DNA of 64,000 nt from Bryobacterales bacterium (GCA_022826925.1 JAJDTX010000176.1:1-64000), one strand, 5' to 3'; counted from the first letter of the stretch, positions 10,857-32,614 are shown. The notes: generated by a model not told the origin, from the sequence alone. A program made the numbers and translations.

Positions 10857-11177
10857 ATGGCGCTGAAAGACGAGCTGGCCGAGCTGCTGGGCGAGCAGGG
10901 CCTGGCGGCCCTGTCGAAAGCCCGCGGCGGGCGCCGGGTCCACGTCCCGCGCCGGATCCGCGCCGGCCACTGGCTGGCGGAGCTGCTCGGCCCCGAGGCC
11001 GCGGGGCGGCTGGCATTCCAATACGGCGGCTGCCGGGTCGAAATCCCGTCCCGTCCGCCGCCGGCCTCTCGCGACGCTCGCATCCGCGAGCTGCGCGCGG
11101 CCGGCAGCCCCGTCGCCGCCATCGCCTCCGAGACCGGCCTGTCCAGGCGTCAGGTGTACCGCATCCTAGCGCGCTGA
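10857..11177 (+). CDS. Mor-like middle/late transcription activator
   Basis: 106 residues from ATG 10857. The N-terminal half (LAELLGEQGLAALSKARGG, then VHVPRRIRAGHWLAELLG) resembles the dimerisation part of Mor/C activators, and the C-terminus (RELRAAGSPVAAIASETG, LSRRQVYRILAR) is a helix-turn-helix. In Mu, Mor and C bind dyad-symmetric sites just upstream of a minus-10 box and recruit RNA polymerase. The first of three identical palindromes in the window starts five bases after this gene, so this protein is the best candidate for the factor binding them. Confidence 0.78.
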   Translation: MALKDELAELLGEQGLAALSKARGGRRVHVPRRIRAGHWLAELLGPEAAGRLAFQYGGCRVEIPSRPPPASRDARIRELRAAGSPVAAIASETGLSRRQVYRILAR

Positions 11178-11181
11178 GGGG

Positions 11182-11228
11182 GGGTGACAATGTCACCCTT
11201 CCCCCCGCGCCCGCGCCCGGCCTACCAT
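11182..11228 (+). promoter_or_regulatory. late promoter 1: palindrome plus TACCAT box
   Basis: Perfect 17-bp palindrome GGGTGACAATGTCACCC at 11182-11198, then 24 bases, then TACCAT at 11223-11228, then 7 bases to an ATG at 11236. The same arrangement with the same spacing recurs at 17087 and 21526. There is no minus-35 box; the palindrome centre lies about 45 bases before the expected start of transcription, the place where Mor/C-type activators bind. It drives DUF2730 through gp30. Confidence 0.85.
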
Positions 11229-11235
11229 CGCCTGC

Positions 11236-11265
11236 ATGGACGCTAGGCGGGAGCGCGGGATCTGA
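11236..11265 (+). CDS. nine-residue leader peptide ORF
   Basis: ATG 11236 lies 7 bases after the TACCAT box, in the same position as the start codons of the genes behind the other two late promoters. It opens a frame of nine codons (MDARRERGI) whose TGA overlaps the ATG of the DUF2730 gene (TGATG). If transcription starts at this ATG, the peptide would be translated from a leaderless end and hand ribosomes to the real gene. Expression is inferred from geometry only. Confidence 0.4.
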   Translation: MDARRERGI

Positions 11266-11618
11266 TGGGCGACTGGGACTGGGCCGCAATCGAGTTCTGG
11301 TTCATCTTTATCCAGTTCGTCGTGCTGGGCGTGGGCGGGCTGATCGCCCGCTCGATCCGCGCCAACTCCGAGCGCATCACCCGCCTCAGGCTCGACGTCG
11401 ACTCCCATGACGAGCGGCTCGAGCGCGAGCTCGGCGCCCACGCCGAGCGGCTGGCCCGCCTGGAGGCGGCCCAGGTCACCCACGACGACCTCTCGCGCAT
11501 CTACCAGCGCCTCGACTCCAACGCCGCCGGGCTGGCCGAGGTCAAGGGCACCATGGTCGCGATGCACGGCACCCTGCAGACCATCCAGCAGCACCTGCTG
11601 GACAAGGCGGCCGCGTGA
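11265..11618 (+). CDS. DUF2730 membrane/coiled-coil protein (Mu gp25-like)
   Basis: 117 residues from ATG 11265. One N-terminal transmembrane helix (about 10-30, EFWFIFIQFVVLGVGGLIA), then a long coiled coil (about 35-117, ERITRLRLDVDSHDERLERE). This architecture and its place right before the gp26-like and terminase genes match the DUF2730 family of Mu-like phages. Function unknown; probably an inner-membrane protein acting late. Confidence 0.78.
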   Translation: MGDWDWAAIEFWFIFIQFVVLGVGGLIARSIRANSERITRLRLDVDSHDERLERELGAHAERLARLEAAQVTHDDLSRIYQRLDSNAAGLAEVKGTMVAMHGTLQTIQQHLLDKAAA

Positions 11619-11920
11619 GCAAGTCCGTCTCGCTGCCCGAGCGCATGCGCCGGCTGCGCCGGCTGGCAGCCCTGCAGCTGCTGGCCCAGCAGCACCCGAA
11701 CGCGGTCAACCTGTACATCCTGCGCGACGCGCTGGCCCGCCTCGGCCACTCCATGACGGTGGCCGAGGCGGCCTCGCTGGCCGACTGGCTGCAGTCCGCC
11801 GGCCTGGTCGAGGACATCGCGCCCGGCCCGCCGCCGGCGCTGCTGGCCACCGAGCGCGGCCTGGCCGCCGCCGAGGGCGGCGAGGTCATCGAGGGGCTGG
11901 CGCGCCCGCTGCCCGGCTGA
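11615..11920 (+). CDS. Mu gp26-like small phage protein
   Basis: 101 residues from GTG 11615, overlap GTGA. RLRRLAALQLLAQQHPNAVN, then ILRDALARLGHSMTVAEAAS and LADWLQSAGLVE read as a winged-helix fold. The sequence resembles the small ArsR-like proteins that lie between DUF2730 and the small terminase in Mu-like phages. The role is not known; it is probably DNA-binding. Confidence 0.68.
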   Translation: MSKSVSLPERMRRLRRLAALQLLAQQHPNAVNLYILRDALARLGHSMTVAEAASLADWLQSAGLVEDIAPGPPPALLATERGLAAAEGGEVIEGLARPLPG

Positions 11921-11928
11921 GGGTCCCG

Positions 11929-12498
11929 ATGGGCAGGCCCTCCACGATCAAGCGGCTGCCGCCGCAGGTGCGCGAGCGGCTCAACGACTGGATCCGCGAC
12001 GAGTCGGTCACCCAGTCCGAGGCGGCCGCCCTCGTCAACAAGCTGCTGGCGGAGCTGTACCCGGGCCATCCCCCGGTCTCGCGCAAGGCCGTCAACCGCT
12101 ACGACCTGTCGATGCGCGAGGCGGGCGAGAAGATCCGCCAGGCGCGCGAGATCTCCGAGCTCTGGATCGCGAAGCTGGGCTCGCAGCCCGGCGGCCAGAC
12201 GGGCCACTTGGTCACGGAGATGATCCGCACCATGGTCTACGAGATCATGCTCGAGCTGCACCGGCAAGAGCTCGCCCCGGAGTCGATGCCCGGCATGATC
12301 GCCTCGCTGAAGAGCCTGGCGCTGACGGCCGCGCGCGTCGAGCGAGCCTCGGAGATCTCCGTCAAGCGCGAGCGCCAGATCCGCGAGGAGGAGCGCAAGC
12401 GAGCTTCCGAGGAGGCCGGCAGGGCCGCCTCCGGCCAGGGCCTCTCCGCCGCGACGGTCGACGCCATCCAGCGGCGGATCCTCGGAGTGGGCGAATGA
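11929..12498 (+). CDS. terminase small subunit (DUF3486, Mu gp27-like)
   Basis: 189 residues from ATG 11929. It begins MGRPSTIKRLPPQVRERLND, followed by SEAAALVNKLL and VSRKAVNRYDLSMREAGEKI, the signature of DUF3486. The remainder is helical and charged. The small terminase recognises phage DNA and presents it to the large subunit; in Mu-like phages packaging begins near the left end and runs into flanking host DNA. It overlaps the large subunit gene by four bases. Confidence 0.88.
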   Translation: MGRPSTIKRLPPQVRERLNDWIRDESVTQSEAAALVNKLLAELYPGHPPVSRKAVNRYDLSMREAGEKIRQAREISELWIAKLGSQPGGQTGHLVTEMIRTMVYEIMLELHRQELAPESMPGMIASLKSLALTAARVERASEISVKRERQIREEERKRASEEAGRAASGQGLSAATVDAIQRRILGVGE

Positions 12499-14048
12499 CT
12501 CCGAGCGGGGTCCTGCTGCCCTACCAGCGGCGCTGGCTTGAAGACGGCAGCGAGTGGAAGATCGCCGAGAAGAGCCGGCGCACCGGCCTGACCTGGGCCG
12601 AGGCGGCCGGGGCCGCGCTGGCGGCGGCCGCCTCCAAGCGGGCCGGCGGCTGCAACCACTCCTACGTCGGCTCCGGCAAGGACATGGCCAGGGAGTTCAT
12701 CGACGCCGCCGCCGACTTCGCCCGCGCCTTCGGCCACGCCGCCTCCGAGGTGGGCGAGTCGGTGTTCGTGGACGAAGGCCGCGAGGACCGCGAGATCACC
12801 GTGTTCCGCATCGAGTTCGCCTCCGGCCATCACATCCAGGCGCTGAGCTCGCGGCCGTCCAACCTGCGCGGCCGCAAGGGCAACGTCACGCTGGACGAGG
12901 CGGCCTTCCAGCCGGACCTGGCCGAGGGCGTCAAGGCGGCCTCGGCGCTGACCATGTGGGGCGGCAAGGTGCGCATCATCTCCACCCACAACGGCGACGA
13001 CAACCCCTTCAACGAGCTGCTGGCCGACGCCCGGGCCGGCCGCAAGGACTACTCGGTGCACCGCGTCACCCTCGACGAGGCCTGCGCCGAGGGGCTCTAC
13101 AAGCGCATCTGCGAGACGCGAGGCATCGACTGGAGCCCGGAGGCCGAGGACGGCTGGAAGCGCGGTTTGCGCCGCAACGCCGGCTCGGCCGAGGCGGCCG
13201 CCGAGGAGTACGACTGCGTGCCCGCCCGCGGCGGCGGGGCCTACCTGCCGCGGGCGCTGATCGAGTCCTGCATGCGCGACGCCCCGGTGCTGCGCTTCGA
13301 GGGCTCGGCCCGCTTCAACGCCCTGCCGGAGCGCTTTCGCGAGGCGGAGATGCGCGAGTGGATCGAGCGCGAGCTGGACCCGCTGCTGGCGCTGCTGGAC
13401 CGCAAGCGCCAGCACGTGCTGGGCGAGGACTTCGGCCGCACGGCCGATTTGACCGTGCTGGCGCCGATGGAGATCGGCGAGCGGCTGCGGCGGCGCGTGC
13501 CGTTCCTGGCCGAGCTGCGCAACGTGCCGTTCCGCCAGCAGGAGCAGGTCCTGCGCCGCCTCGGCGACGGCCTGCCGCGCTTCCGCGCGGCCAAGCTCGA
13601 CGCGCGCGGCAACGGCCAGTACCTGGCCGAGCGCGCCCAGGACTTCTGGGGCCGCGGCCGGGTCGAGGCCGTGATGACCTCCCAGGCCTGGTACCTGGAG
13701 CAGATGCCGCCCTTCAAGGCGGCCTTCGAGGACGGGCTGGTCGAGATCCCGCGCGACGACGAGGTGGCCTCGGACCTGCGCGCGCTGCAGGTGGTCAAGG
13801 GCATCCCGCGCGTGCCGGAAGTCCGCACCGGCGCGGAGGGCGACCGCCACGGCGACGCCGCGATCGCGCTGTGCATGGCCCACGCCGCCTCCCGCGCCGA
13901 GGTGCCCGAGTACGCCTACCGCCCGGCCCCGCGCCGGGCCGCGCCCGGGTCCGGACACGGCCGCGACCCCTTCATGTTCCCCGGCCGCTCCGGCGACTAT
14001 CACGGGCCCGGGCGCGGCTACGGGCGCTGGGACCGGGGGGCGCTGTAG
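12495..14048 (+). CDS. terminase large subunit (Mu gp28-like)
   Basis: 517 residues. The ATPase half shows an adenine/P-loop region (YQRRWLEDGSEWKIAEKSRR then TGLTWAEA), a variant Walker A as in Mu gp28, and a Walker B-like NVTLDEAAF. The C-terminal nuclease half has an acidic cluster beginning GEDFGRTADLTVLAP and ending GDRHGDAAIALCMA, the RNase H-like pattern of terminases. It packages DNA into proheads with ATP. The Gly/Arg-rich tail (GRSGDYHGPGRGYGRW) is poorly conserved. Confidence 0.92.
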   Translation: MTPSGVLLPYQRRWLEDGSEWKIAEKSRRTGLTWAEAAGAALAAAASKRAGGCNHSYVGSGKDMAREFIDAAADFARAFGHAASEVGESVFVDEGREDREITVFRIEFASGHHIQALSSRPSNLRGRKGNVTLDEAAFQPDLAEGVKAASALTMWGGKVRIISTHNGDDNPFNELLADARAGRKDYSVHRVTLDEACAEGLYKRICETRGIDWSPEAEDGWKRGLRRNAGSAEAAAEEYDCVPARGGGAYLPRALIESCMRDAPVLRFEGSARFNALPERFREAEMREWIERELDPLLALLDRKRQHVLGEDFGRTADLTVLAPMEIGERLRRRVPFLAELRNVPFRQQEQVLRRLGDGLPRFRAAKLDARGNGQYLAERAQDFWGRGRVEAVMTSQAWYLEQMPPFKAAFEDGLVEIPRDDEVASDLRALQVVKGIPRVPEVRTGAEGDRHGDAAIALCMAHAASRAEVPEYAYRPAPRRAAPGSGHGRDPFMFPGRSGDYHGPGRGYGRWDRGAL

Positions 14049-14049
14049 G

Positions 14050-15597
14050 ATGGCCCGCATGCCCCATCTGTACGGCCCCGACGGCCGGCCGGTGCGCCGC
14101 GAGCAGCTGCTGCGCGAGCGCCTCGGGCCCTCGCTGGCCTCGGTGCGCCAGCCGTGGATGCTCGACGCGGTCGCGGCCGGCCTGACGCCCGCCCGCCTGG
14201 CGGGAGTCATCCGGGCCGCCGACTCCGGAGACACCCGCGAGATGTACGCGCTGGCCGGCGAGCTCGAGGAGCGCCACCCGCGCTACGGCGCCACGCTCGG
14301 CGTGCGCCGCCGGGCGGCCCTGGCGGTGGAGCCGTCGGTGGAGGCCGCCTCCGATTCCGCCGCCGACAAGGCCCTGGCCGAGGAGATCCGCGCGCTGGTT
14401 CGCGCGCCCGCCTTCCGCGCGATGCTGCAGCGCTGCCTGTGGGGGCTGGGCCCGGGCCTGGCCGCGATCGAGATCCTGTGGGACCGCTCCGGGCCGCAGT
14501 GGATGCCGCAGGCCTACGAATGGCGCGACCCGCGCTGGTTCCGCTGGGACCGCGAGGACGCCTCCCGGCTGCGCGCCCTGGTCGACGAGGACCAGGCCGA
14601 GGGCCTGCCGCTGGACCCCTTCAAGTGGATCGTGCACGCGCCCAGCCTGCGGCCGGGCATCCCGGCCCGCGGCGGGCTGGCGCGGCCGGTCGCGGCGCTG
14701 TTCTGCCTGGCCTCGCACGCGCTGGCCGACTGGGCCGGCTGGCTGGAGAACTACGGCCGCCCGATCCGCGTCGGCAAGTACGACCGCGCGGCCACCGACG
14801 AGGAGAAGGACACGCTGCACCGGGCCGTGTCGCTGCTGGGCTCGGACGCCGCCGCGACCATGCCGGCGTCGATGGACGTCGAGCTGCTGGAGGCCTCGCG
14901 CTCGAGCTCCTCGGACGCCTACGAGCGCTTCGCGCGCTGGCTGGACGAGCAGGTCACGATCGCGGTGCTGGGCCAGGCCGGCACGACCCAGGGCACGCCC
15001 GGGCGGCTGGGCTCGGACGAGGCCCAGGCGGACGTGCGCGCCGACATCCTGGCCGGCGACTGCGAGGAGCTGGCCGAGACGCTCAACCGCGACCTGGTGC
15101 GGCCCTATATCGACCTCAACCGCGGCCCGCAGGCCGCCTACCCGCGCATCGTCCTGCGCCCGGAGGACCCGGAGGATGCCGAGCTGCTGGCGAAGACGCT
15201 GCGCATGCTGGTGCCGCTGGGCCTGCGGGTGGAGGCCGCGGAGGTGCGCGGCCGGCTGGGCTGGGCCGACCCGCCCGCCGGGGCGGAGGTGCTCGAAGCC
15301 CCGTCCGGGCCGGCGCCGGCACCGTCCGGATCCGCGCGCTCGGCGGCCGCCGAGTCCGGCTCCCGCCAGAGCCTGCTCGAGGAGCTGGAGGGGCGGGCGC
15401 TGGACGGCTGGGAGCGCGTCATGGACCCGCTGCTGGCGCCGCTGCGCGAGCTGCTGGAGCGCTCGGCGACGCGCGAGGAGTTCCTGGCCGGCATGGCCGG
15501 CGCGCTGGGGGCGATGGACGATTCCGAGCTGCGCCGGGCGCTGGCCGCGGCGACGTTCGCGGCGCGCGGGCTGGGCGACGCCCGCGACGAGGCCTGA
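14050..15597 (+). CDS. portal protein (DUF935, Mu gp29-like)
   Basis: 515 residues from ATG 14050. MLDAVAAGLTPARLAGVIRA, then MYALAGELEERHPRYGATLG and VRRRAALAVEP is the start pattern of DUF935 portal proteins, followed by YEWRDPRWFRWD, WIVHAPSLRPGIPARGGLAR and WLDEQVTIAVLGQAGTTQG. It forms the dodecameric channel through which DNA enters and leaves. Residues 425-510 form a helical tail with the Ala-rich FAARGLGDARDEA end. Confidence 0.93.
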   Translation: MARMPHLYGPDGRPVRREQLLRERLGPSLASVRQPWMLDAVAAGLTPARLAGVIRAADSGDTREMYALAGELEERHPRYGATLGVRRRAALAVEPSVEAASDSAADKALAEEIRALVRAPAFRAMLQRCLWGLGPGLAAIEILWDRSGPQWMPQAYEWRDPRWFRWDREDASRLRALVDEDQAEGLPLDPFKWIVHAPSLRPGIPARGGLARPVAALFCLASHALADWAGWLENYGRPIRVGKYDRAATDEEKDTLHRAVSLLGSDAAATMPASMDVELLEASRSSSSDAYERFARWLDEQVTIAVLGQAGTTQGTPGRLGSDEAQADVRADILAGDCEELAETLNRDLVRPYIDLNRGPQAAYPRIVLRPEDPEDAELLAKTLRMLVPLGLRVEAAEVRGRLGWADPPAGAEVLEAPSGPAPAPSGSARSAAAESGSRQSLLEELEGRALDGWERVMDPLLAPLRELLERSATREEFLAGMAGALGAMDDSELRRALAAATFAARGLGDARDEA

Positions 15598-15607
15598 GGA
15601 GGGAGGG

Positions 15608-15715
15608 GTGGCCGCGAAAGAGCGATGCGAACTCGCCGCGGCGGTCGCGCTGTGCCTGTGGGCGCTGATGCCCTGCATGCGAGTCTCCTGCTCGCTCGCC
15701 GGGCTGGCCGGCTGA
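15608..15715 (+). CDS. possible 35-residue membrane peptide
   Basis: A short frame from GTG 15608, placed after GAGGAGGGAGG and ending three bases before the ATG of the F gene. The centre is hydrophobic and Cys-rich (LAAAVALCLWALMPCMR), a single membrane span. The strong ribosome site and tight fit between two structural genes favour a real small protein; no family is known. Confidence 0.42.
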   Translation: MAAKERCELAAAVALCLWALMPCMRVSCSLAGLAG

Positions 15716-15718
15716 CCG

Positions 15719-17008
15719 ATGGCGCGCAAGCCCAGGCCCGGATTCCGCTTCCCCGGTCCGGTGCCGAAAGAGGCCCTGGAGTTTTTCAAGGCCAAGCAGC
15801 TGCGTCCGTCGTTCTCTTACCTGGACGTCTCCGCCGAGGAGCACGCGCTGGCGTTCACCGTCGCCAAGTCGGCCGGCTTCGACATCCTCGCGGACGTCAA
15901 GGGCGCTCTCGAGGAGCACCTGGAGAAGGGCAAGACGTTCGAGTCGTTCAAGCGGGAGCTGGCGCCGATCCTGCAGAAGAAGGGCTGGTGGGGCGAAAAG
16001 GACGTCACCGATCCGGAGACGGGCGAGAAGCGCCTCGCGCAGCTGGGCAGCCCGCGCCGGCTGCAGACGATCTTCCGCGCCAACATGCGCTCGGCGAGGG
16101 CGGCCGGGCAGTGGCAGCGCATCCAGAGGACGAAGCGCTCCCATCCCTACCTGCTCTACCGGCCGAGCTCGTCGCGCGAGCCCCGCGAGGAGCACGTGCA
16201 GTGGTACGGCACGCTGCTGCCGGCGGACGATCCCTGGTGGCGCGACCACTTCCCGCCCAACGGCTGGGGCTGCAAGTGCTGGGTGCGACAGGTCTCGGCC
16301 AGAGAGGCCGCGAGGCTGGGCGGCGCGACGCCGCGCCCGCCGCGGGACGAGGTCGAGTGGACCAACCCGCGCACCGGCGAGACGATGCGCGTCGACCGCG
16401 GCCTCGACCCCTCCTGGGCGGGCAATCCGGGCATCGACCGGCCGCGCCTGCTGGCGGAGGAGCTCGCCCGGGACGTCGGCGCCCTCGCCGGGGTGTCGGA
16501 CGCGCTGGCTCGCGAGGCGGTCCGGCAGGTCGTGGACAGCTCGCTGCTGGAGCGGCAATTCGCGCCGCTGAAGCCGGGCGAGACGCTCGGGGGCTTGCCG
16601 ATCGCTGTCTTGCCGGAGAAGCGGGCGCGCCAGCTCGGCACGGAAGCTCGCACGCTCGTCCTGACTCGCGAGACGGCCAAGAAGCAGGCGGAGAGCCACC
16701 ATCGGCCGAACAAGCGCTGGCCCGACTCGGCGCCGCTCTCCGTCGATGACTACCGCACGGTGCTGCCGGAGATGCTCGAGCGAGCCAGGGGCGAGCACGT
16801 CGTGCGCAGCGGCGGCCACTTGGGCGCCGACCGCGACGAGCTCCTGCTCGCCTACGAGAAAGACTCCCTGTGGTATCTGCTAGTGGTCGGGCAGGACCGG
16901 GCGGCGGGAGCGAGCCCTCGACTCGTCACCTTCTACAATCTGAGCGAGCGAGCTGCGATGCACAAGCTTGACGAAGCCAAGAGCCGGGCGGCCAAGCCGG
17001 GGAGATAA
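15719..17008 (+). CDS. Mu F-like head morphogenesis protein with C-terminal nuclease-like domain
   Basis: 429 residues. Residues about 110-190 are the phage Mu F-like head domain (TIFRANMRSARAAGQWQRIQ, then HPYLLYRPS and HFPPNGWGCKCWV). Residues about 310-425 are a separate module: LTRETAKKQAESH, SVDDYRTVLPEMLERA, DELLLAYEKDSLWYLLVVGQ, LVTFYNLSER. This matches my memory of the barnase/EndoU/colicin-E5/RelE-like (PBECR) domains fused to many F proteins. The head part is a minor capsid component. The tail module may be a toxin delivered with the virion or a structural relic; I cannot point to catalytic residues with certainty. Confidence 0.86.
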   Translation: MARKPRPGFRFPGPVPKEALEFFKAKQLRPSFSYLDVSAEEHALAFTVAKSAGFDILADVKGALEEHLEKGKTFESFKRELAPILQKKGWWGEKDVTDPETGEKRLAQLGSPRRLQTIFRANMRSARAAGQWQRIQRTKRSHPYLLYRPSSSREPREEHVQWYGTLLPADDPWWRDHFPPNGWGCKCWVRQVSAREAARLGGATPRPPRDEVEWTNPRTGETMRVDRGLDPSWAGNPGIDRPRLLAEELARDVGALAGVSDALAREAVRQVVDSSLLERQFAPLKPGETLGGLPIAVLPEKRARQLGTEARTLVLTRETAKKQAESHHRPNKRWPDSAPLSVDDYRTVLPEMLERARGEHVVRSGGHLGADRDELLLAYEKDSLWYLLVVGQDRAAGASPRLVTFYNLSERAAMHKLDEAKSRAAKPGR

Positions 17009-17028
17009 GGTTACCGGGATTACGGCGT

Positions 17029-17042
17029 GAGCCTTCGGGCTC
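17029..17042 (+). terminator. possible stem-loop after the head gene F
   Basis: GAGCC (17029-17033), tetraloop TTCG, GGCTC (17038-17042), about 20 bases after the F stop codon and before late promoter 2. UUCG-type hairpins are stable, but no T-run follows, so it would be a weak or factor-dependent terminator or an mRNA end protector. Confidence 0.35.
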
Positions 17043-17086
17043 CCGGCGGGCCATTCGCATTCTAGCACGGCCCCGGCCCGGACAGG

Positions 17087-17133
17087 GGGTGACAATGTCA
17101 CCCTTCCCGCGCCTGTCGCGCCCGGCCTAACAT
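17087..17133 (+). promoter_or_regulatory. late promoter 2: palindrome plus TAACAT box
   Basis: The palindrome GGGTGACAATGTCACCC at 17087-17103, 24 bases, TAACAT at 17128-17133, then 7 bases to ATG 17141. The geometry is identical to the promoters at 11182 and 21526. It would start the cargo and lysis block in step with the head genes. Confidence 0.85.
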
Positions 17134-17140
17134 GGGCTCG

Positions 17141-17425
17141 ATGGAGCCCGTCGACGTCTCGAAGCTGTACGGCTCGCGGCCGCTGGGCCCGCTGCGCGAC
17201 AAGCGCTCGGTCGACATTTCGACGGCCGACCACGTCGACGAGGGCGGATTCGTCTGCCAGGTCGCCAAGGCGGGCGAGCTGACCTACCGCACGGTCGCCG
17301 GCGAGACCGACGAGACCGAGACGCTCGAGGCGGGCGCGTCCGTCCAGGCCGCCGGCGTCCCGGTGCTGCTCAAGGCGGTCCGCGCCAGCGCCGCGATCGG
17401 CACGATCGTGATCGGCAAGCTGTGA
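17141..17425 (+). CDS. small phage protein, possible spike-base type
   Basis: 94 residues from ATG 17141. An upstream in-frame ATG at 17132 overlaps the promoter box and cannot be used if that promoter is real. With the expected start of transcription the message would be leaderless. The C-terminal half (ASVQAAGVPVLLKAVRASAA, then GTIVIGKL) is beta-rich, recalling small spike or decoration proteins of phage particles. No firm family. Confidence 0.6.
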   Translation: MEPVDVSKLYGSRPLGPLRDKRSVDISTADHVDEGGFVCQVAKAGELTYRTVAGETDETETLEAGASVQAAGVPVLLKAVRASAAIGTIVIGKL

Positions 17426-17431
17426 GCTGAC

Positions 17432-17551
17432 ATGTCCGCCGCCGCCCGCTTCGTGTTCTGGTGGCGCTCCCGCTCCGGATCCGGCGGCTCGGTCCCGGCC
17501 GCGCCGGCCGGGCGGCGCTTCTCGCGACGCTTCTCGCGCAGGTTCGCCTGA
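17432..17551 (+). CDS. possible 39-residue basic peptide
   Basis: A short frame from ATG 17432, whose TGA overlaps the next ATG (TGATG), as at many junctions in this phage. Sequence MSAAARFVFWWRSRSGSGGS continues to an Arg/Phe repeat end (FSRRFSRRF). The overlap favours translation; the composition alone would not. No function suggested. Confidence 0.35.
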   Translation: MSAAARFVFWWRSRSGSGGSVPAAPAGRRFSRRFSRRFA

Positions 17552-18132
17552 TGGCAGTCAAGACCGCCGCCAAGCTCAAAGAGGCCGCGCTGGCGCTGCT
17601 GGCGGACACCGGGCCGGATTACGACATCGACCCCTCCGAGGTGCGCGGCCTGCTGGACGACATCGTCGACTCGGTGCCCTCGCTGGGCCTGCGCAAGATC
17701 TACTCCGGCGCCCAGGCGGCCGCGGGCAGCGACAGGACGGGCGCCCCGCTGGACGGCGCGGCCGCCAGCCTGGTCCTGCCGTCGGCGCCGTCCGTGATGA
17801 TGGTCCGCGCCGGATGGCGGCTCTACCGCACCTTCCGCGGCGACCAGGTCGTCGACACCGAGGGCTACTCCGAGGGCCTCTACGCCGGGGGCGACACGCA
17901 CGTGCGGGCGCACTTCGGCAACGTCAACTGGACGGAGTTCGAGAATATCGGACTGCTCTCGGCAGAGTCTCCGGCGGTGTCTGTCGGCCTGCTGAGCGAC
18001 GACCTCAGCTACACCAACGCCTTCACGATCGAGTACAAGCCGTCGACGCGAGAGCTGTCGTTCGCGGCCGTGAACGATCCGGCGTCGGCGCGGATACCCG
18101 TCGTGCACAGCCTGATCGTGGCGGGGAGCTGA
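17551..18132 (+). CDS. hypothetical phage protein, possibly virion-associated
   Basis: 193 residues from ATG 17551. N-terminal helical part (KLKEAALALLADTGPDYDID), then a beta-rich C-terminal domain (SVMMVRAGWRLYRTFRGDQV and onward to IPVVHSLIVAGS). This layout, a helical base followed by a beta sandwich, is common in small fibre or decoration proteins. No family is recognised. It belongs to the cargo block behind late promoter 2. Confidence 0.55.
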   Translation: MAVKTAAKLKEAALALLADTGPDYDIDPSEVRGLLDDIVDSVPSLGLRKIYSGAQAAAGSDRTGAPLDGAAASLVLPSAPSVMMVRAGWRLYRTFRGDQVVDTEGYSEGLYAGGDTHVRAHFGNVNWTEFENIGLLSAESPAVSVGLLSDDLSYTNAFTIEYKPSTRELSFAAVNDPASARIPVVHSLIVAGS

Positions 18133-18135
18133 TCG

Positions 18136-18387
18136 ATGCCGCTGCATCTCGCCAGCCTCGCCTCGGGCTCGGCGCTGCTGGCGTTCCGCAGCCCCCCGGA
18201 CATCTTCTCCGCGAACGGCAAGAAGGCCGCGAGGCGCAAGCGCGACGCGGCGATCCCCGACACGAGCGCGTTCGACGCGGCGCCGCACCTGTGCGTCGAG
18301 CTGCGCTGGGGAAACGAGGCGGTCAGGCAGGTGCGCAAGGGCGGAGCGTGGATCGACCTGTGCATGCTCCCGGACAAGGACGACTAG
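18136..18387 (+). CDS. hypothetical phage protein
   Basis: 83 residues from ATG 18136, four bases after the preceding stop. Contains a basic patch (SANGKKAARRKRDAAIPD) and ends in an acidic tail (MLPDKDD). No family recognised. Its upstream spacing and shared direction place it in the cargo operon. Confidence 0.5.
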   Translation: MPLHLASLASGSALLAFRSPPDIFSANGKKAARRKRDAAIPDTSAFDAAPHLCVELRWGNEAVRQVRKGGAWIDLCMLPDKDD

Positions 18388-18408
18388 GGAAAGCGAGGAG
18401 GTAGTCCA

Positions 18409-19173
18409 ATGCTATCCAATACAAATCTCAAGCTGCGACTCCCGTGCGCGCTGATTCTCGGGGGGCTGGCGCTGCTGGCGCCGGCGGCCCGCTCCGGCCG
18501 CGCGCAGGTAACCGACTGCTCGGCCAGGCCCGAGATGGTCAACCTGGCCCAGCGCTACCACGACGCCAACGCGGCCAAGCCGAGCTACAAGGGGAACTGG
18601 CTGCGCGTGCTCAAGGCGTTCGGCGCCACGAGCGCGAACGTGACGGCCTACACGGTATCGGAGGCCGAGACGTCCGTGACGGTCTGGCGCGGCTGGAATC
18701 CGTTCCTGCTGGAGCTGAAGCGCATCAAGAAATGTCGCGCGGACCAAGCGGCGCGACAGGAATCGTCACAGGACACGGTCGAGACCCAAGACCCTCCGCC
18801 GATCCAGTATTCGTCGGGCACGGACCAGATCACCCCTCCGACCATCAGCGGCTTCAGGTTTATCGAGGACCGCAGCCGATCCTGGGTGGACATCCTCAGG
18901 TACGGCAGCGCCGACTGGAAAGAGATGCTGCTGATGCGGCGGCCCGGGGACACTCGCTGGACGCGCACGACCTGCCTAGGCGATCTGGCGGCCTTCGACC
19001 GCGACCTGCCGGACTATCGCTTCAACACGTGTCGGATCTGGGCGGAAAGCGTCACCGACGACAACTACACGCCCTCCGGGGCGCGCTGCCGATACATGCC
19101 CGCAGGCGTGACCTATCGGATCTTCTTCCGGTACGCGGGCGACATCCTGTGGCTGGAGGTCGCATGCCCCTGA
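18409..19173 (+). CDS. secreted protein with signal peptide, cargo gene
   Basis: 254 residues from ATG 18409 with GAGGAGG upstream. Signal peptide: basic start (NTNLKLR), hydrophobic core (ALILGGLALLAPAARS), likely cleavage after Ala near residue 32. The mature part starts with a module VNLAQRYHDANAAKPSYKGN, then WLRVLKAFGA, TAYTVSEAE and WRGWNPFLLELKRI. I recall similar modules in large exported proteins of marine gammaproteobacteria but cannot confirm that. The rest has paired Cys (KKC, TTC, NTC, GARC, VAC) suited to the periplasm. An exported protein expressed with lysis genes could act in the envelope. Confidence 0.6.
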   Translation: MLSNTNLKLRLPCALILGGLALLAPAARSGRAQVTDCSARPEMVNLAQRYHDANAAKPSYKGNWLRVLKAFGATSANVTAYTVSEAETSVTVWRGWNPFLLELKRIKKCRADQAARQESSQDTVETQDPPPIQYSSGTDQITPPTISGFRFIEDRSRSWVDILRYGSADWKEMLLMRRPGDTRWTRTTCLGDLAAFDRDLPDYRFNTCRIWAESVTDDNYTPSGARCRYMPAGVTYRIFFRYAGDILWLEVACP

Positions 19174-19214
19174 GACCGCCCAACCCCTCGCCCGGCCGCA
19201 AGCCAGGAGACATC

Positions 19215-20396
19215 ATGAAACCCCTTCCAGAATTCGACTTCCCGCCCCTGGCGGCCGTGCGCGAGCGCATGCGGCAGGTCATCGGCGAGCACCCCCTGCC
19301 GCGCTGCGAGGCGCCGCAGTCCCTGCGGCAGACCGGCCAGCAGGTCGAAGCCTTCGTCGAGCAGGCCAACCATCCGGACACGGGCTGCGCCCCGGACCTG
19401 CACGGGCTGCGCCCGGACCGGGCGATGACCCAGCAGGCGCTGATCGAGCGCATCGCGGCCCTGCCGCGCGGCGCCGGCGGGCCCACGCCCGAGAGCTGGG
19501 GAGAGTGGCCCGTGCCGCAGGCCCCGGCCCCGGCGGGCGAGACCGCCGACCGGGGCTACTACCTGGCCCCGGACCGCGAGGACGCGCTGGTCATCGGCGG
19601 TGCCGCCGTCGGCCCGCACTCGCCCTCCTTCGAGCATCGCGGCCGGACCGTCAAGCGCGACGGCGACGACCGCTGGACGGTCTCGTCGGCCTGCCCGAAC
19701 CTGTCCTGGAAGTTCTGGCGCGTGCCCTCCAACCCGACCCTGGAGTGGCTGGCCGGCGGCGATCTGACGGTCCCGCGGCCGGGCTTCGACGCCTCCGGGC
19801 TCGACCCCTCGCTGCCGCCGGAGGTTTTCGCGGAGGCGTCCAGCGTGCCGCTGTCGGTCCATCCCGAGCGCGGCGAGGACGCCATCGACCTGTATCCCGA
19901 CGTGGACGTGTCGTACTGGGGCGAGCTGCGGATCTACTCCCACCGCGTCTACGGCCGCGACCGGATGGGCTGGCAGAAGCTCGGCTTCTGGGCGGCCCTG
20001 GACGTGGCGATCAACTGGTTCGAGGCCCTGGAATGGGCCTACGGCGCGGCCGGGCGGCCGGCCTGGCTGGACGGCGCGGCCGGTCCCGCGCGCGAGGCGC
20101 GGGAGATCGGCCCCGGGGATGCCCCGGCGCCGCTGCCCGCGGACGCCGATCCGGACCCGCTGCTGGACACCCTGGAGAGGGTCGTCGCCAGCCGCAAGAA
20201 GGCCCGCGCCGAGCTCGCCGAGTGCCGCGCCGCCGCGGCGGAATCCGAGCGGCTGCAGGCCGAGGCGGACGCGGCCCGCGAGAGGGCCGCGAAGGCCGGG
20301 GAGCGAGCCGAGCCCGCGCGCCGCGCCATCCGCGAGAGCGCCGGGCAGCTGCTCGAGCTGCTCAAGGCCGACGAGGATTTTCCGGGGATCGAGTAG
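19215..20396 (+). CDS. large hypothetical phage protein with C-terminal coiled coil
   Basis: 393 residues from ATG 19215 (AGGAGA upstream); an alternative in-frame ATG at 19164 has GGAGG four bases before it and would overlap the previous gene. The middle is Trp-rich (SWKFWRVPSNPTLEWLAGG, YWGELRIYSHRV, GFWAALDVAINWFEALEWAY), and the last 90 residues form a helical coiled coil (AELAECRAAAAESERLQAEA). It is upstream of lysozyme in the cargo block. No family recognised; a virion or lysis-related function is possible. Confidence 0.6.
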   Translation: MKPLPEFDFPPLAAVRERMRQVIGEHPLPRCEAPQSLRQTGQQVEAFVEQANHPDTGCAPDLHGLRPDRAMTQQALIERIAALPRGAGGPTPESWGEWPVPQAPAPAGETADRGYYLAPDREDALVIGGAAVGPHSPSFEHRGRTVKRDGDDRWTVSSACPNLSWKFWRVPSNPTLEWLAGGDLTVPRPGFDASGLDPSLPPEVFAEASSVPLSVHPERGEDAIDLYPDVDVSYWGELRIYSHRVYGRDRMGWQKLGFWAALDVAINWFEALEWAYGAAGRPAWLDGAAGPAREAREIGPGDAPAPLPADADPDPLLDTLERVVASRKKARAELAECRAAAAESERLQAEADAARERAAKAGERAEPARRAIRESAGQLLELLKADEDFPGIE

Positions 20397-20401
20397 CCGC
20401 G

Positions 20402-21229
20402 ATGCCCGGGTGGAAGAAGCGCCTGGCCGGGCGCCTCGGCAGGGTCGCGGCCTCGGCCGCGACCGGGGGCATGTCCGAGCAGGCGCTGGCCGGCGCGCGA
20501 CTGATGCGCCGGAAGCAGGAGGAGAGAGCCATGGACCACGCGCAAGCGGTTCTGATCGCGCTGGACGACGAGCGCGTCCAGCAGAAGCTGGCCGATCTCG
20601 TGATCGAGATCGTCGAGGCGGCGGAGGATCCGCCCGGTCCCGCGCCGAGCGCTCCCGGCGGCCCGGTCCCGCCCGCCGTGCTCTCGCTGCCGTTCCGGAA
20701 GAGGGTGGAGGAGCACGAGGGGCTGCGGCTCGACGTGCACCTGGTGGACGGCATCCCGCACGTCGGGATCGGCCACAACTGCTCCACCGACAGCATCCCC
20801 GACGAAGAGCAGCAGCTCGGCATGACGATCTCGATGGAACTCTGCCGGGAGCTGTTCGAGGACGATCTCGACGACGCCGAGCACAAGGCCCGCCGGACCT
20901 GCCGGCAGATGGGCGCCGACTTCGACTCGTTCTCGCCAGCGGTGCGCGAGGCGCTGCACGAGATGTGTTTCCAGATGGGCTCGGTCAAGTGGAGCGGAAT
21001 GTTCTCGCGCCTCAAGTCCGGCAATTACGCCGAGGCCGCCCGCGAGGCGCTGCGCTCCGGGCTGGTGCAGGGCAAGCCGTCCAGGTGGTTCCTGCAGACG
21101 CCGCAGCGCTGCCTGAACGTGTGCCACTTCCTCAGCGACCGGCAGCTGCTGTTCGAAGTCGGGCCTGCAGCGACCTTTGCCGACGGCTCGAGCGGCCCGA
21201 CCGTGATCGAGCATCCGTGGGCCGGCTGA
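20402..21229 (+). CDS. phage lysozyme (GH24-like endolysin) with N-terminal extension
   Basis: 275 residues. The last 180 form a T4-type lysozyme domain: RKRVEEHEGLRLDVHL with catalytic Glu at about 106, then VDGIPHVGIGHNCSTD with the usual Asp and G-x-G-H turn, and VREALHEMCFQMGSVKWSG later. The position normally held by Thr in the Glu-Asp-Thr triad is His (IPHVGIGH), a variant seen in other phage lysozymes. Residues 1-85 are an extra helical segment with an acidic, Pro-rich linker. It cleaves peptidoglycan for host lysis and is followed by a holin-like gene. Confidence 0.82.
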   Translation: MPGWKKRLAGRLGRVAASAATGGMSEQALAGARLMRRKQEERAMDHAQAVLIALDDERVQQKLADLVIEIVEAAEDPPGPAPSAPGGPVPPAVLSLPFRKRVEEHEGLRLDVHLVDGIPHVGIGHNCSTDSIPDEEQQLGMTISMELCRELFEDDLDDAEHKARRTCRQMGADFDSFSPAVREALHEMCFQMGSVKWSGMFSRLKSGNYAEAAREALRSGLVQGKPSRWFLQTPQRCLNVCHFLSDRQLLFEVGPAATFADGSSGPTVIEHPWAG

Positions 21230-21519
21230 AGCCGTCAGTGTCGGTGCGCGCGCCGGCGCGGCCGGATCCGGACCGGCCTGCCGGCTCGCCGCCGCCCGGG
21301 CCGAGGCCTGCGGCGCCCCCCGCGTGGGCGCTGCTGCTGGTCCGGCTGGCGCTGGCGCTGGCGGCCTGCGCGCTGTTCGCGGGCGTCGCCTGGCCGCTGC
21401 TCTACCGGGAGATGGGCCTCGACCCTGCCGACAAGTTCTTCCTGATCGGCCAGATCCTGGCATTCGTCGCCGGCTACATGGCGGCGGTCTTCCAGTTCCA
21501 CTTCCCCCAGAACGACTGA
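21217..21519 (+). CDS. putative holin
   Basis: About 100 residues if started at GTG 21217 (other GTG candidates are at 21238 and 21244). A Pro/Arg-rich N-terminus is followed by two transmembrane helices: AWALLLVRLALALAACALFA and FFLIGQILAFVAGYMAAVF, with a short polar end HFPQND. Two-span proteins immediately after an endolysin gene are typical of class II holins, which open the inner membrane so that lysozyme can reach the cell wall. The start is uncertain. Confidence 0.62.
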   Translation: MGRLKPSVSVRAPARPDPDRPAGSPPPGPRPAAPPAWALLLVRLALALAACALFAGVAWPLLYREMGLDPADKFFLIGQILAFVAGYMAAVFQFHFPQND

Positions 21520-21525
21520 AACAGG

Positions 21526-21572
21526 GGGTGACAATGTCACCCTTCCCCTCGCTCCCCCGCCCGTCCTACCAT
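21526..21572 (+). promoter_or_regulatory. late promoter 3: palindrome plus TACCAT box
   Basis: GGGTGACAATGTCACCC at 21526-21542, 24 bases, TACCAT at 21567-21572, 7 bases, ATG 21580. Identical spacing to the other two. It starts seven bases after the holin stop and probably drives the capsid and tail genes, since no further copy of the palindrome is visible before the end of the phage. Confidence 0.85.
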
Positions 21573-21579: not shown

Positions 21580-21816
21580 ATGACCCCCGAAGACCGCCCC
21601 GAGCGCTCCGAGATCCGGCCCAACGTGATCCTGCTGGCGGCGCTCGCCGCCGGCGCGATCGCCGTCGCCGCGCTGTGCGGCATGGACGCGGGCCAGCTCG
21701 TGTCGGCCTACGTCGGCGGCATCATCGGGCTGGCCGGGCGCCTGCTCGACCCGCCCCCCGAGGAGAACATCCCCGCCTCCTCGCTGAAGGACATCCTGGA
21801 GGCGGCCCGCCGCTAG
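21580..21816 (+). CDS. small two-span membrane protein
   Basis: 78 residues from ATG 21580, the codon 7 bases after the TACCAT box, so the mRNA is predicted to be leaderless. Two hydrophobic segments, NVILLAALAAGAIAVAALCG and LVSAYVGGIIGLAGRLL, then an acidic end. It could be a second holin/antiholin or a membrane anchor for head assembly. No family is recognised. Confidence 0.6.
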   Translation: MTPEDRPERSEIRPNVILLAALAAGAIAVAALCGMDAGQLVSAYVGGIIGLAGRLLDPPPEENIPASSLKDILEAARR

Positions 21817-21817
21817 C

Positions 21818-22870
21818 ATGGCCCCCTCCCGCGCCCTGCCGATCGCCCTCGCGGCCGCCCTGGCGGCGACCGCCGCGCGGGCTTTCTGCGCCGAGATCCG
21901 GCTCGAGGACGGCCGCGCCCCGGAGTGGGTGCAGCTGTTCCCGGCAGGCCCGGAGCTGAAAGCTTCCGACGGCCGTCGCTGGCGGCTGTCCGATCCCGGA
22001 TCCGTGGCCCGTCGCAGCGACGAGCGGCGCGGCGGCCGGGACCTGCCGATCGACTGGGAGCACGCCCAGGACCGCCGCGCGCCCATGGGCGAGCGCGCCG
22101 ACGCGGCCGCCTGGATCAAGGAATTCGCGGTCCGCGACGGCGCCCTGGCGGCGCGCGTGGAATGGACCGAGGCCGGGCGCGCCAGCGTCGAGGGCCGCTC
22201 CTACCGCTACATCTCCCCGAGCTTCGGCCACACGGTCGAGATCGGGCCCCGGGGCAACCTGGACGGAGGCGACGTGACCTACGTCGCCGGAGCGGGGCTG
22301 GTCAACCGCCCCGCGTTCGACATGCCGGCGCTGGCCGGCGAGGAGGGATCCGTGAACGAGTTTCTGAAGAAGGTGCTGGAGGCGCTCTCGCTGGCGAGCG
22401 ATCACGGCGAGGACAAGGCCCTCGCCGCGATCGCGGCGCTGCGCTCCGAGCGCGACGAGGCGCGCTCGCAGGCCGCCGCCGATCCGCCGGCCGACAAGTT
22501 CGTGCCGCGCGAGATGTACTCCTCGGCCCTGGCGCGCGCCACCGCCGCCGAGAGCAAGCTGGCCGAGCAGGCGCAGGCGTCGCTCGAGGGCGAGGTCAAG
22601 CGCGAGCTGGACGCCGCCCAGGAGGCGGGCAAGGTCACGCCGGCCACGCGTCCCTGGTTCGAGTCCCAGTGCCGCACCGATGGCGGGCTCGAGGAGGTCC
22701 GCAAGCTTCTCGCGATCGCCCCCGCGACCGGCGAGCCCTCCGGCGTCACCGGCAGCCCGCCGGAGGGCTCCGGCGGCTTCGCCTCCGCCGAGGAGCGCTC
22801 CATCGCGGGCATCTTCGGCCGCGACGCCAGGTTCCTCGACGAGCACGCGCCGTCCCAGGGGGCCAGCTGA
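21818..22870 (+). CDS. head maturation protease/scaffold (Mu I-like)
   Basis: 350 residues from ATG 21818. The N-terminal 175 residues match the Mu gpI protease family: WVQLFPAGPELKASDGRRW, DLPIDWEHAQDRRAP with the conserved DWEH, AAWIKEFAVRDGALAARVEW, YRYISPSFGHT. The C-terminal half (from about 180) is helical and charged, the scaffold portion. In Mu the protease degrades scaffold during head maturation. An internal start at 22352 would make the scaffold alone. Confidence 0.88.
   Translation: MAPSRALPIALAAALAATAARAFCAEIRLEDGRAPEWVQLFPAGPELKASDGRRWRLSDPGSVARRSDERRGGRDLPIDWEHAQDRRAPMGERADAAAWIKEFAVRDGALAARVEWTEAGRASVEGRSYRYISPSFGHTVEIGPRGNLDGGDVTYVAGAGLVNRPAFDMPALAGEEGSVNEFLKKVLEALSLASDHGEDKALAAIAALRSERDEARSQAAADPPADKFVPREMYSSALARATAAESKLAEQAQASLEGEVKRELDAAQEAGKVTPATRPWFESQCRTDGGLEEVRKLLAIAPATGEPSGVTGSPPEGSGGFASAEERSIAGIFGRDARFLDEHAPSQGAS
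22352..22870 (+). CDS. nested scaffold protein (Mu Z-like), internal start
   Basis: A GTG at 22352 in the frame of the protease gene is preceded by GCGAGGAGGG (22338-22347), a full-strength ribosome site at four to five bases. Translation from it gives a 172-residue protein that is exactly the scaffold half (VNEFLKKVLEALSLASDHG onward). Mu makes its scaffold Z from an internal start in gene I in the same way. Not proven here, but position and signal fit well. Confidence 0.7.
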   Translation: MNEFLKKVLEALSLASDHGEDKALAAIAALRSERDEARSQAAADPPADKFVPREMYSSALARATAAESKLAEQAQASLEGEVKRELDAAQEAGKVTPATRPWFESQCRTDGGLEEVRKLLAIAPATGEPSGVTGSPPEGSGGFASAEERSIAGIFGRDARFLDEHAPSQGAS

Positions 22871-22871
22871 C

Positions 22872-23273
22872 ATGGCGGCCCTGGCAAAAGACCGCAGCAC
22901 GCCCGAGCGCGAGGGCGTGCTCTTCCGCGCCCCCGTCAAGAAGGGCGTCACCATCCACGCCGGATCGCTGGTCGCCAAGGCGGCCGACGGCTACGCCGAG
23001 CCGGCCTCCAAGGCCGCGAGCCTGGTCGTGCTGGGCCGCGCCGAGGAGGCCGCCAAGGGCGGCTCCGCCAACGGCGACACGACCGTGCTGGTGCGGCGCG
23101 GCACCTTCAAGTGGGCCAACGACTCCGCCGCCCCGGTCACCGCGGCCGAGGTCGGCGAGGAGAAGGCCTTCATCGTCGACGACCAGACCGTGACCAAGAC
23201 CGCCTCGGGCTCGACCGCCGCGGGCAAGGTCATCGCCGTGGAATCCGACGGCGTCTGGGTGGAAACCCTCTAG
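22872..23273 (+). CDS. head decoration / capsid cement protein
   Basis: 133 residues from ATG 22872. KKGVTIHAGSLVAKAADGYA, then LVVLGRAEEAAKGGSANGDT and KVIAVESDGVWVETL is the beta-tulip-like pattern of small capsid cement proteins, and the gene sits between scaffold and capsid as expected. It probably stabilises the expanded head. Confidence 0.75.
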   Translation: MAALAKDRSTPEREGVLFRAPVKKGVTIHAGSLVAKAADGYAEPASKAASLVVLGRAEEAAKGGSANGDTTVLVRRGTFKWANDSAAPVTAAEVGEEKAFIVDDQTVTKTASGSTAAGKVIAVESDGVWVETL

Positions 23274-23289
23274 CGAGCCGGGAGGCATC

Positions 23290-24210
23290 ATGATCGTCAA
23301 CAGGGCAGCCCTCGACGGGCTCTTCCGAAACCTGCGGGCGGAGTTCAACTCCGCCTACTCCGAGGCCGCGGTCACCTGGATGGTGATCGCCACGCTGGTG
23401 CAGTCCTCGACCGGGCGGGAGGACTACCGCTGGTTCAGCCGCTTCCCGCAGATGCGCAAGTGGGTCGGCGAGCGCGCCGTGAAGTCCCTCGCCGCGTTCG
23501 GCTACAACGTGCCCAACGAGCCCTTCGAGGCCACTATCGCGGTCGACCGCGACGACCTCGAGGACGACATCCTGGGCATCTACCAGGCCCAGGCGCGCAT
23601 GGCCGGCATCTCCGCCAAGCTGTGGCCCGACGAGCTGGTCTACGGCGCCGTCAACAACTCCTTCGACGCCGACAAGGGCAAGTGCCACGACGGCAAGGCC
23701 TTCTTCGCGGACGACCACCCGCTGACCGAGGGGGCGGCCTTCTCCAACAAGCTGCAGAAGGCGCTCAAGGCCGACTCGCTGGCCAACGCGCAGGCCAGCT
23801 TCGGCAAGGCCCGCACGATGCTGGAGACGATGAAAGACGAGGAGGGCCGCCCGATGGGCACCACGGCGGACGTGCTGCTGGTGCCGCCCGCCCTGCGCGA
23901 CACGGCCTCGATCCTGCTCAACTCCGACAGGCTCGGCGGCGAGGACCCCAACCCCTACAAGGGCGCGGCCGAGCTGGCGGTCTCGCCGCGGCTGAGCTCG
24001 GCCACGGCCTGGTTCCTGCTGCACACCTCTGGGCCGCTGAAGCCCTTCATCTTCCAGCAGCGCAAGGCGCCGGAGCTGGTCTCGCAGATGGACCCGCAGA
24101 TGCACGAGCGCGCCTTCATGCGCAAGGAGTACCTGTTCGGGGCCGACTCGCGCGGCGCGGCGGCCTACGCCCTGCCGCAGTGCGCGGTGGGCTCGGACGG
24201 CACCAAGTAG
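23290..24210 (+). CDS. major capsid protein (Mu T-like)
   Basis: 306 residues, the usual size of Mu gpT (305). ALDGLFRNLRAEFNSAYSEA, WFSRFPQMRKWVGERAVKSL, YNVPNEPFEATIAVDRDDLE and DILGIYQAQARMAGISAKLW are diagnostic of the Mu-like major head subunit, as is the central ALRDTASILLNSDRLGGEDP. HK97-type fold known for this family. GGGAGGCATC precedes the ATG. Confidence 0.95.
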   Translation: MIVNRAALDGLFRNLRAEFNSAYSEAAVTWMVIATLVQSSTGREDYRWFSRFPQMRKWVGERAVKSLAAFGYNVPNEPFEATIAVDRDDLEDDILGIYQAQARMAGISAKLWPDELVYGAVNNSFDADKGKCHDGKAFFADDHPLTEGAAFSNKLQKALKADSLANAQASFGKARTMLETMKDEEGRPMGTTADVLLVPPALRDTASILLNSDRLGGEDPNPYKGAAELAVSPRLSSATAWFLLHTSGPLKPFIFQQRKAPELVSQMDPQMHERAFMRKEYLFGADSRGAAAYALPQCAVGSDGTK

Positions 24211-24222
24211 CCGATCTGCCCC

Positions 24223-24654
24223 ATGGCCTATTCCGGCGTCCAGGACTGCATCGACCGCCGCGGCGAGGAGAGTCTCCGCCCGCTGGCCGACGACCCGCAC
24301 GCCGGCACGCCGGCCTGGGACGAGCTGGAGGCGGCCCTGGAGGACGCCTCCGACGAGATCGACGCCTACGTCGGCGCGCGCCACGAGCTGCCGCTGGACC
24401 CGGTCCCGCGAGTGCTGCAGCGGCTGTGTGTGGAGATCGGCATCTACCGCCGGGCCGACTCGGCCGACCGCGGCACCGAGGAGATGCGCCGGCGCTACGA
24501 GGACGGCATCCGCCTGCTGAAGGACATCCAGTCCGGCCGCGCCTCGCTGGGCCCGTCCGACCCGGACCCGCCCGCCCGCTCGGATATGCCCGCGGTCTCG
24601 ATCGAGGCCGAGCCGCGCTCGATGACGCGCGAGGACCTGGGGAGGATCCTGTAG
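24223..24654 (+). CDS. DUF1320 protein (Mu gp36-like)
   Basis: 143 residues from ATG 24223. MAYSGVQDCIDRRGEESLRP, then AALEDASDEIDAYVGARHEL and RVLQRLCVEIGIYRRADSAD are characteristic of DUF1320, a head-completion (connector) protein placed right after the capsid gene in Mu-like phages. Confidence 0.9.
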   Translation: MAYSGVQDCIDRRGEESLRPLADDPHAGTPAWDELEAALEDASDEIDAYVGARHELPLDPVPRVLQRLCVEIGIYRRADSADRGTEEMRRRYEDGIRLLKDIQSGRASLGPSDPDPPARSDMPAVSIEAEPRSMTREDLGRIL

Positions 24655-24655
24655 C

Positions 24656-25135
24656 GTGTCCGCCGCCCTGGAGATCTCGGTGACGTCTCCGGCCCTGGAA
24701 GGGCTGCAGGCGCGCATCCGCAAGCTGGCGGCCGGCATGGCCGACACCGGCCCCCTGCTGGAGGCGCTCGGCGCGGAGCTGGAGAGCCAGGCGAGAAGGC
24801 GCATCGATTCCGGGGGCCCGGCCCCCGACGGCGAGAGCTGGCAGCCCTGGTCCGACGCCTACGCGGAGACTCGTCGCGGCGGCCAGCGCATGCTGATCTC
24901 GGAGCAGGGCCTGCTGGACTCGATTCAGAGCCTGGTGTCGGGCGACATCCTCGAGACCGGCTCGAACCTGGTCTACGCCGCCATCCAGCAGTTCGGCGGC
25001 ACGGCCGGCATGGCACCCGGCCCGGCCGCGGTGCCGGCCCGGCCCTGGCTGGGCATCTCTGCCGATGACGAGCGCGACCTCGACGCCGTCATCGGCGACC
25101 ACTTCGAATCCCTGGCCGCGGAGGCGCTGGCATGA
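24656..25135 (+). CDS. virion morphogenesis protein (Mu G-like)
   Basis: 159 residues from GTG 24656. ALGAELESQARRRIDSGGPA, GESWQPWSDAYAETRR, LLDSIQSLVSGD, and VYAAIQQFGGTAG followed by ARPWLGISADDE match the phage virion morphogenesis family (gpG), thought to act in tail completion or head-tail joining. It overlaps the next ATG by four bases. Confidence 0.88.
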   Translation: MSAALEISVTSPALEGLQARIRKLAAGMADTGPLLEALGAELESQARRRIDSGGPAPDGESWQPWSDAYAETRRGGQRMLISEQGLLDSIQSLVSGDILETGSNLVYAAIQQFGGTAGMAPGPAAVPARPWLGISADDERDLDAVIGDHFESLAAEALA

Positions 25136-26441: not shown

Positions 26442-26788
26442 CGGGCATCGACGCATCCACCGGCAGGGCACTGGGCGGCATCGCCCACGTGCGCCAATCG
26501 GTCCGCGACATCCTGCTCACGCCCGTCGGCAGCCGCGTGCTGCTGCGGGACTACGGCTCGCGCCTGCTCGAGCTGGTCGACCGGCCGCTGTCGGCCGGCC
26601 TGCTGGCGGACATCCAGGCCGAGGCCGCCGACGCGCTGGCGCGCAGGGAGCCGCGCCTGCGGCTGCGCGGCGTCGCCGCCAGCGCCGCCGGCGCGCGCGT
26701 CGAGGTCGACCTCGCGGGCGTGTACCTGCCCGAGGGCCGGCCGGTGCTGCTGGAAGGCATCCGGCTGGCCCTGGCGGAGGAGGGCTGA
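26438..26788 (+). CDS. baseplate wedge protein W (gp25-like)
   Basis: 116 residues from ATG 26438, overlap ATGA. GRALGGIAHVRQSVRDILLT, PVGSRVLLRDYGSRLLELVD is the classical GPW/gp25 motif including the R-D-Y-G-S turn. It forms part of the baseplate wedge next to J. Confidence 0.93.
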   Translation: MTGIDASTGRALGGIAHVRQSVRDILLTPVGSRVLLRDYGSRLLELVDRPLSAGLLADIQAEAADALARREPRLRLRGVAASAAGARVEVDLAGVYLPEGRPVLLEGIRLALAEEG

Positions 26789-26791
26789 TCG

Positions 26792-29960: not shown

Positions 29961-29973
29961 AGAGGAGTCAATC

Positions 29974-31590: not shown

Positions 31591-31608
31591 CCTGGGAGGG
31601 AAGAGCTC

Positions 31609-32109: not shown

Positions 32110-32141
32110 GCGGAGATTCAAGGGAGCTTTAAGGAGACGAC

Positions 32142-32611: not shown

Positions 32612-32614
32612 TTG

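Follow-up and report, generated by a model that had tools for sequence, protein, structure and literature searches.

The window, a 64,000-nucleotide stretch of DNA from a Bryobacterales bacterium, holds three exact copies of a perfect 8+1+8 dyad, GGGTGACAATGTCACCC, each standing before a block of phage genes, and the question raised by this locus is what the copies are for and which protein reads them. The earlier note had proposed three late promoters of invariant layout under one regulator.

Three identical sites in a Mu-like prophage

All three copies are present where the earlier note had placed them (Table 1), and each is followed by exactly 24 nt, a box (TACCAT, TAACAT, and TACCAT at sites 1, 2, and 3, respectively), 7 nt, and an ATG. 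Site 2 has two in-frame ATGs, of which the second is in register. The start of the TAMCAT box is 33 nt from the dyad centre at all three sites, a -35 hexamer is absent, and the conserved block is slightly wider than the palindrome itself (GGG-palindrome-TTCCC...CCGNCCTAMCAT). With TAMCAT placed as a -10 box (-12 to -7), the dyad would span approximately -53 to -37 with its centre near -45, and the ATG would fall at approximately +2 of the predicted start, a coincidence that the earlier note had passed over.

Scanning the window with up to three mismatches gave no match beyond the three copies, while the dinucleotide-shuffled control of the window gave a mean of 0.11 matches and a maximum of 2. 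The earlier note had named many unrelated genomic copies as an argument against its reading; in the whole genome (5.97 Mb), there is no exact copy outside the three. The next best genomic match (two mismatches, on another contig, C28) precedes a lysR-type gene and was judged unrelated, and the viral contigs scanned contained no exact match. As judged from the sequence, the triplicate is a real, non-random regulatory element.

The host region is a prophage of 70-75% G+C in surroundings of lower G+C. It encodes a MuA-type transposase (3821-6118; DDE_2, 5.7e-36), MuB (6529-7509; Phage-MuB_C, 1.2e-15), and Mu head proteins (Phage_Mu_Gp27, 2.8e-36; Mu-like_gpT, 6.2e-75), the combination by which it was classed as a Mu-like transposable phage. 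Each palindrome heads a separate block, again as first described: packaging, cargo/lysis, and capsid/tail. Gene calls in the second block are uncertain at 70% G+C. In the early region, a gene at 8744-9172 matches phrog_4786 (annotated as cysteine dioxygenase) and is conserved in three relatives, the prophages G252 and G247 and the IMG/VR contig L049.

Table 1. Coordinates of the activator gene, its predicted sites, and the late operons in the window.
Feature	Position	Strand	Basis
Mor/C-family late activator gene, 106 aa, predicted palindrome binder	10857..11177	+	Pfam Mor, phrog_836
Activator site 1 (predicted), GGGTGACAATGTCACCC	11182..11198	+	exact repeat, fixed spacing
Predicted -10 box TACCAT, late promoter 1	11223..11228	+	24-nt spacer, kept in G252, G247, L049
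Predicted transcript 1 start region and 9-codon ORF (ATG 11237, MDARRERGI and stop)	11236..11266	+	
Late operon 1: gp25/26-like ORFs, gp27 small terminase, TerL, portal gp29, gp30	11265..17008	+	
Activator site 2 (predicted)	17087..17103	+	exact repeat, fixed spacing
Predicted -10 box TAACAT, late promoter 2	17128..17133	+	in-register ATG at 17141
Late operon 2: small unknown ORFs and lysozyme-domain ORF (Phage_lysozyme 2.6e-7)	17141..21519	+	
Activator site 3 (predicted)	21526..21542	+	exact repeat; symmetric swap in G249
Predicted -10 box TACCAT, late promoter 3	21567..21572	+	ATG at 21580
Late operon 3: ORF, head protease I, major head gpT, sheath, tape measure, further tail genes	21580..37046	+	

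The ATG at site 1 opens a 9-codon ORF only, which overlaps the ATG of the next gene at 11265. At that place, G252 and G247 have full-length dksA/traR zinc-finger genes (PF01258, 3e-11 and 3e-12), and the short ORF appears to be an internally deleted dksA/traR-like remnant, with the middle lost and the start and stop kept. It may have been retained as if a leaderless start and translational coupling had value.

A Mor-family activator and its counterparts in phage Mu

The mor-like gene stops at 11177, leaving four bases between it and the first palindrome. Its 106-aa product matches Pfam Mor (PF08765) at 2.2e-7 with 31.3 bits (cut-off 24.9) and phrog_836, "late transcriptional activator", at 5.4e-21, and has a C-terminal helix-turn-helix (HTH_7, 1.2e-9); a Mor domain together with such a helix-turn-helix is what places it in the Mor/C activator family. 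In its own genome, the gene is the sole match to a Mor profile (A1) made from the window protein and two relatives. Three identical sites and one profile match would fit a single activator serving several operons, while the second Mor-type protein of a two-step cascade, such as the separate Mor and C of Mu, was not among the matches to this profile in the genome. The protein as a single query against the genome contigs gave no match, and a Pfam Mor search of the same genome returned nothing, a search judged insensitive because a direct scan of the protein does exceed the cut-off. A run of approximately ten G residues (10847-10856) directly precedes the mor ATG, and an N gap and a G run occur at the same place in G247; such a run may be a reason for the absence of mor from another relative, G249.

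The kind of system is already known. The Mu Mor dimer binds a 16-bp dyad from -51 to -36 (centre -43.5), replacing the -35 element for sigma-70 polymerase at Pm, where a -10 box is present (PMC4390567, PMC4287176). Related dyads at the lys, I, P, and mom promoters, all four of them late, are occupied by Mu C, and cross-activation does not occur (PMC4390567, PMC4287176, PMC4461284); the C sites differ among promoters (PMC4461284). The earlier note had cited C as one activator of several late promoters with differing sites, which holds, but the parallel is closer than it had claimed, since the Mor dyad of Mu also replaces the -35 element. Pm and the window share a Mor-family protein, a dyad near -43 to -45 (from a predicted start in the window), a -10 hexamer, and the lack of a -35 element. 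Mu Mor, however, serves one middle promoter and C then serves the late ones, whereas the window protein appears to serve all late operons; it is only weakly related in sequence to Mu Mor (1rr7), and in Mu the two 5-bp repeats of the dyad are set 6 bp apart rather than in the 8+1+8 arrangement. With the C-dependent promoters (Plys, PI, PP, and Pmom), the window shares a predicted single activator and several predicted late promoters with upstream dyads, and PI precedes the protease gene, as does site 3; the window differs in having three exact copies and a first late ORF approximately 45 nt from the dyad centre. The window is best read as a variant of Mor/C activation.

For D3112-like phages, a published account gives promoters and no palindrome (PMC4378225). 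Pseudomonas phage JBD26, which is D3112-like, encodes a Pfam Mor protein and has GTTGAACCCCTTC before its first late gene and its protease gene, with the ATG 44.5-45.5 nt from the element centre, but its dyad is shorter and less perfect than that of the window. Alteromonadaceae phage B23 also has related elements before these two genes. A third dyad copy in B23 (L085, 28421), GCTGAAGGGCTTCAGG, is flanked by the DNA circulation gene and a tail protein gene, close to the position of the P promoter in Mu.

One layout with many palindromes

Prophages of the same genus were retrieved by their portal protein and by a Mor profile. The close relatives keep the site position, spacer, and -10 box, yet their palindromes (GGCTGAAACTTTCAGCC, GGCTGAACAGTTCAGCC) differ from that of the window and stay perfectly symmetric. 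The reading in the earlier note needs correction here, in that the site is not a one-off but one spelling of a shared architecture. In G252, the perfect 17-bp dyad is GGCTGAAACTTTCAGCC, with four copies: two flank mor, the second of them immediately behind it, a third follows gp30, and the last precedes the protease gene. G247 has two copies of GGCTGAACAGTTCAGCC, one overlapping the stop codon of mor and the other following gp30, at the end of the contig. A 24-nt spacer leads to TANNAT at three of the four G252 sites and one of the two G247 sites; site 2 of each is without a clean TANNAT at 24 nt. The additional G252 copy 5' of mor (C92:244212-244228; L071 and L019) has TATCAT and a short leader, and predicts self-activation in that phage. 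No site precedes mor in the window, but the feedback-free expression proposed in the earlier note is not general.

In L049, the first late gene is the same and is preceded by GGCTGAACTCTTCAGCC; the leader is longer, with the ATG at 52 nt from the dyad centre. An additional gene separates mor from the site in this contig, and the site has remained beside the late operon, to which it would therefore belong. The Mor recognition helix of L049 (SERWVYKI) is almost that of G247 (SERWVYKV), and the window protein reads SRRQVYR there. A matching of helix to half-site is suggestive: R at the third helix position goes with a GA core, and SERW goes with TGAAC in G247 and L049. The pattern GG.TGA.....TCA.CCTT-22-TA, scanned over 257 genomes of the order, gave 12 matches; eight are in these phages and all perfectly symmetric, while none of the four in other genomes is. 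No clear repeated palindrome was found in the Mor-like-gene carriers G254, G241, G242, G284, and Rhodovulum RhkS_P1, some of whose contigs are cut or rearranged (as are the mor loci of G241, G242, and G254).

The late module of G249 is highly similar to that of the window (mcp 98%, protease 94%, and neighbours 92-97% identical), and its third site reads GGCTGAACAGTTCAGCC. Relative to site 3 of the window, substitutions at 3/15, 7/11, and 8/10 make six changes in three mirror pairs, all still complementary, for which a simple model gives a chance of 0.0003; in the flanks, 26/28 and 38/43 positions are identical. This is the pattern expected, at the level of sequence, from selection on a dimer-binding site of altered specificity. 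The Mor protein of G249, the gene for which is absent from the assembly, is predicted to have changed to match.

A Mor alignment search extended the comparison to 15 viral contigs. Private palindromes occur in POA1180/L088 (GCCTGACACTGTCAGGC), L089 (GGTCCGAAATCGGACC), L097 (GGTAACATATGTTACC), L098 (GGGCTGACACCTGTCAGCCC), and L101 (CCGGACATGTGTCCGG); in all of these, the palindrome starts within approximately 7 bp of the mor stop and recurs approximately 8 kb downstream, before another late operon. L095 has a weaker pair; in L096 and L100, a palindrome follows mor, and no second copy was found within the contig sequence examined. In POA1180 (L105), the tail sheath gene (CDS at 19556) has a third copy a short distance 5' of it, at 19462. 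The activators of L015, L089, L095, L097, L098, L101, and L105 all match phrog_836, and several of the distant ones fall short of Pfam Mor. In L015, a Maritimibacter prophage, the site was picked first by the dyad-box-ATG rule alone; the phrog_836 gene was then found, with a second copy of the palindrome shortly 3' of it. In the gaps inspected in Mu, martha 12B12, Shewanella MuM16-2, and Rhodovulum RhkS_P1, no perfect dyad was clearly repeated.

In 19 of 29 sites, the ATG is 44-46 nt from the dyad centre, vs 3.6% among the 2,947 other dyads and 3.2% over all positions; an ATG and TAnnnT occur jointly at 9 of the 29, vs 0.03%, in a set where sites within a lineage are non-independent and where sight of the box or ATG partly guided the choice of the B23 and JBD26 sites. 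Nearly every lineage gives at least one site with an ATG at the expected offset, and the ten sites without one are mostly those directly after mor in distant phages. The first gene of a late block is thus predicted usually to start almost exactly at the transcription start, and this offset, like the 7-nt distance from box to ATG in the window, predicts near-leaderless late mRNAs.

Probable activation of the late operons and competing readings

GGGTGACAATGTCACCC is very probably where the Mor/C-family activator encoded by this phage binds as a dimer, which would replace the -35 element and fire the three late operons. The repeats, their geometry and conservation, the symmetric substitution, and the co-occurrence with an activator gene are observed; binding, activation, transcription starts, and recognition pairing are what we infer, at the window sites from protein family and geometry. 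A dimer of the 106-aa protein would bind the palindrome at approximately -45, stand in for the absent -35 element, and recruit host main-sigma RNA polymerase to the TANNAT -10 box, so that packaging, cargo/lysis, and capsid/tail operons would be expressed together. Transcription would start at the ATG of the first ORF or 1-2 nt from it, giving leaderless or near-leaderless mRNAs. The earlier note's promoters without a -35 box and under one regulator are borne out, as predictions, by the geometry and the relatives, and its choice of the adjacent gene as the likely regulator agrees with the Pfam Mor and phrog_836 matches and with co-occurrence in relatives.

Perfect dyads are also typical of repressor operators and the element is a prophage, which would suit a palindrome that silences the late operons in the lysogen through the phage repressor. 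This is improbable, in that the sites lie upstream of a promoter core that, with no -35 element, would be too weak unaided; no copy occurs in the early/repressor region of the window, the sites of the relatives were found by the mor gene and late operons only, and the spelling varies with each phage having its own phrog_836 gene. There is a similarly slim chance that mor is a bystander and that a host factor or an unrecognised phage protein binds the palindrome, Mor binding having been deduced from family and neighbourhood. A shared host factor does not explain palindromes that vary by phage even within one host genus, a phrog_836 gene beside the site is common to unrelated phages, and G256, which has relatives of portal, gp30, protease, and mcp and in which mor was not detected, shows no such palindrome. 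A terminator or processing hairpin is very improbable: the sites do mark operon borders, two follow stop codons closely, and the transcribed sequence could fold into a 6-bp stem closed by a 5-nt loop, but the single-base centre is more in keeping with a protein dimer than with a hairpin, the palindrome is not followed by a T-run, the distance to the downstream -10 box and ATG is fixed, and the L049 site remains with its late operon where a gene parts it from mor.

Under activation by Mor, activator and site would diverge together between phages, and each phage would then answer solely to its own activator. Whether this extends to the phrog_836 transposable phages as a whole is evenly balanced: they may share one portable late-promoter design, with a private symmetric site at the mor stop and ahead of further late operons, a missing -35 element, and a transcript that starts at the ATG, in which activator and palindrome drift in symmetric steps and coexisting or superinfecting Mu-like phages do not trigger one another's late genes.

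What is new relative to Mu is a predicted single-activator late regulon with private symmetric operators and near-leaderless geometry. It offers a simple annotation rule for late operons in transposable phages, the lead genes of which are predicted to be translated from almost leaderless mRNA. Activator and sites can be read in pairs from sequence, giving a natural set of matched protein-DNA specificities; with G249 and the window as an operator changed by three mirror pairs within largely conserved flanks, how a regulator and all of its sites shift specificity without breaking the circuit becomes directly testable.
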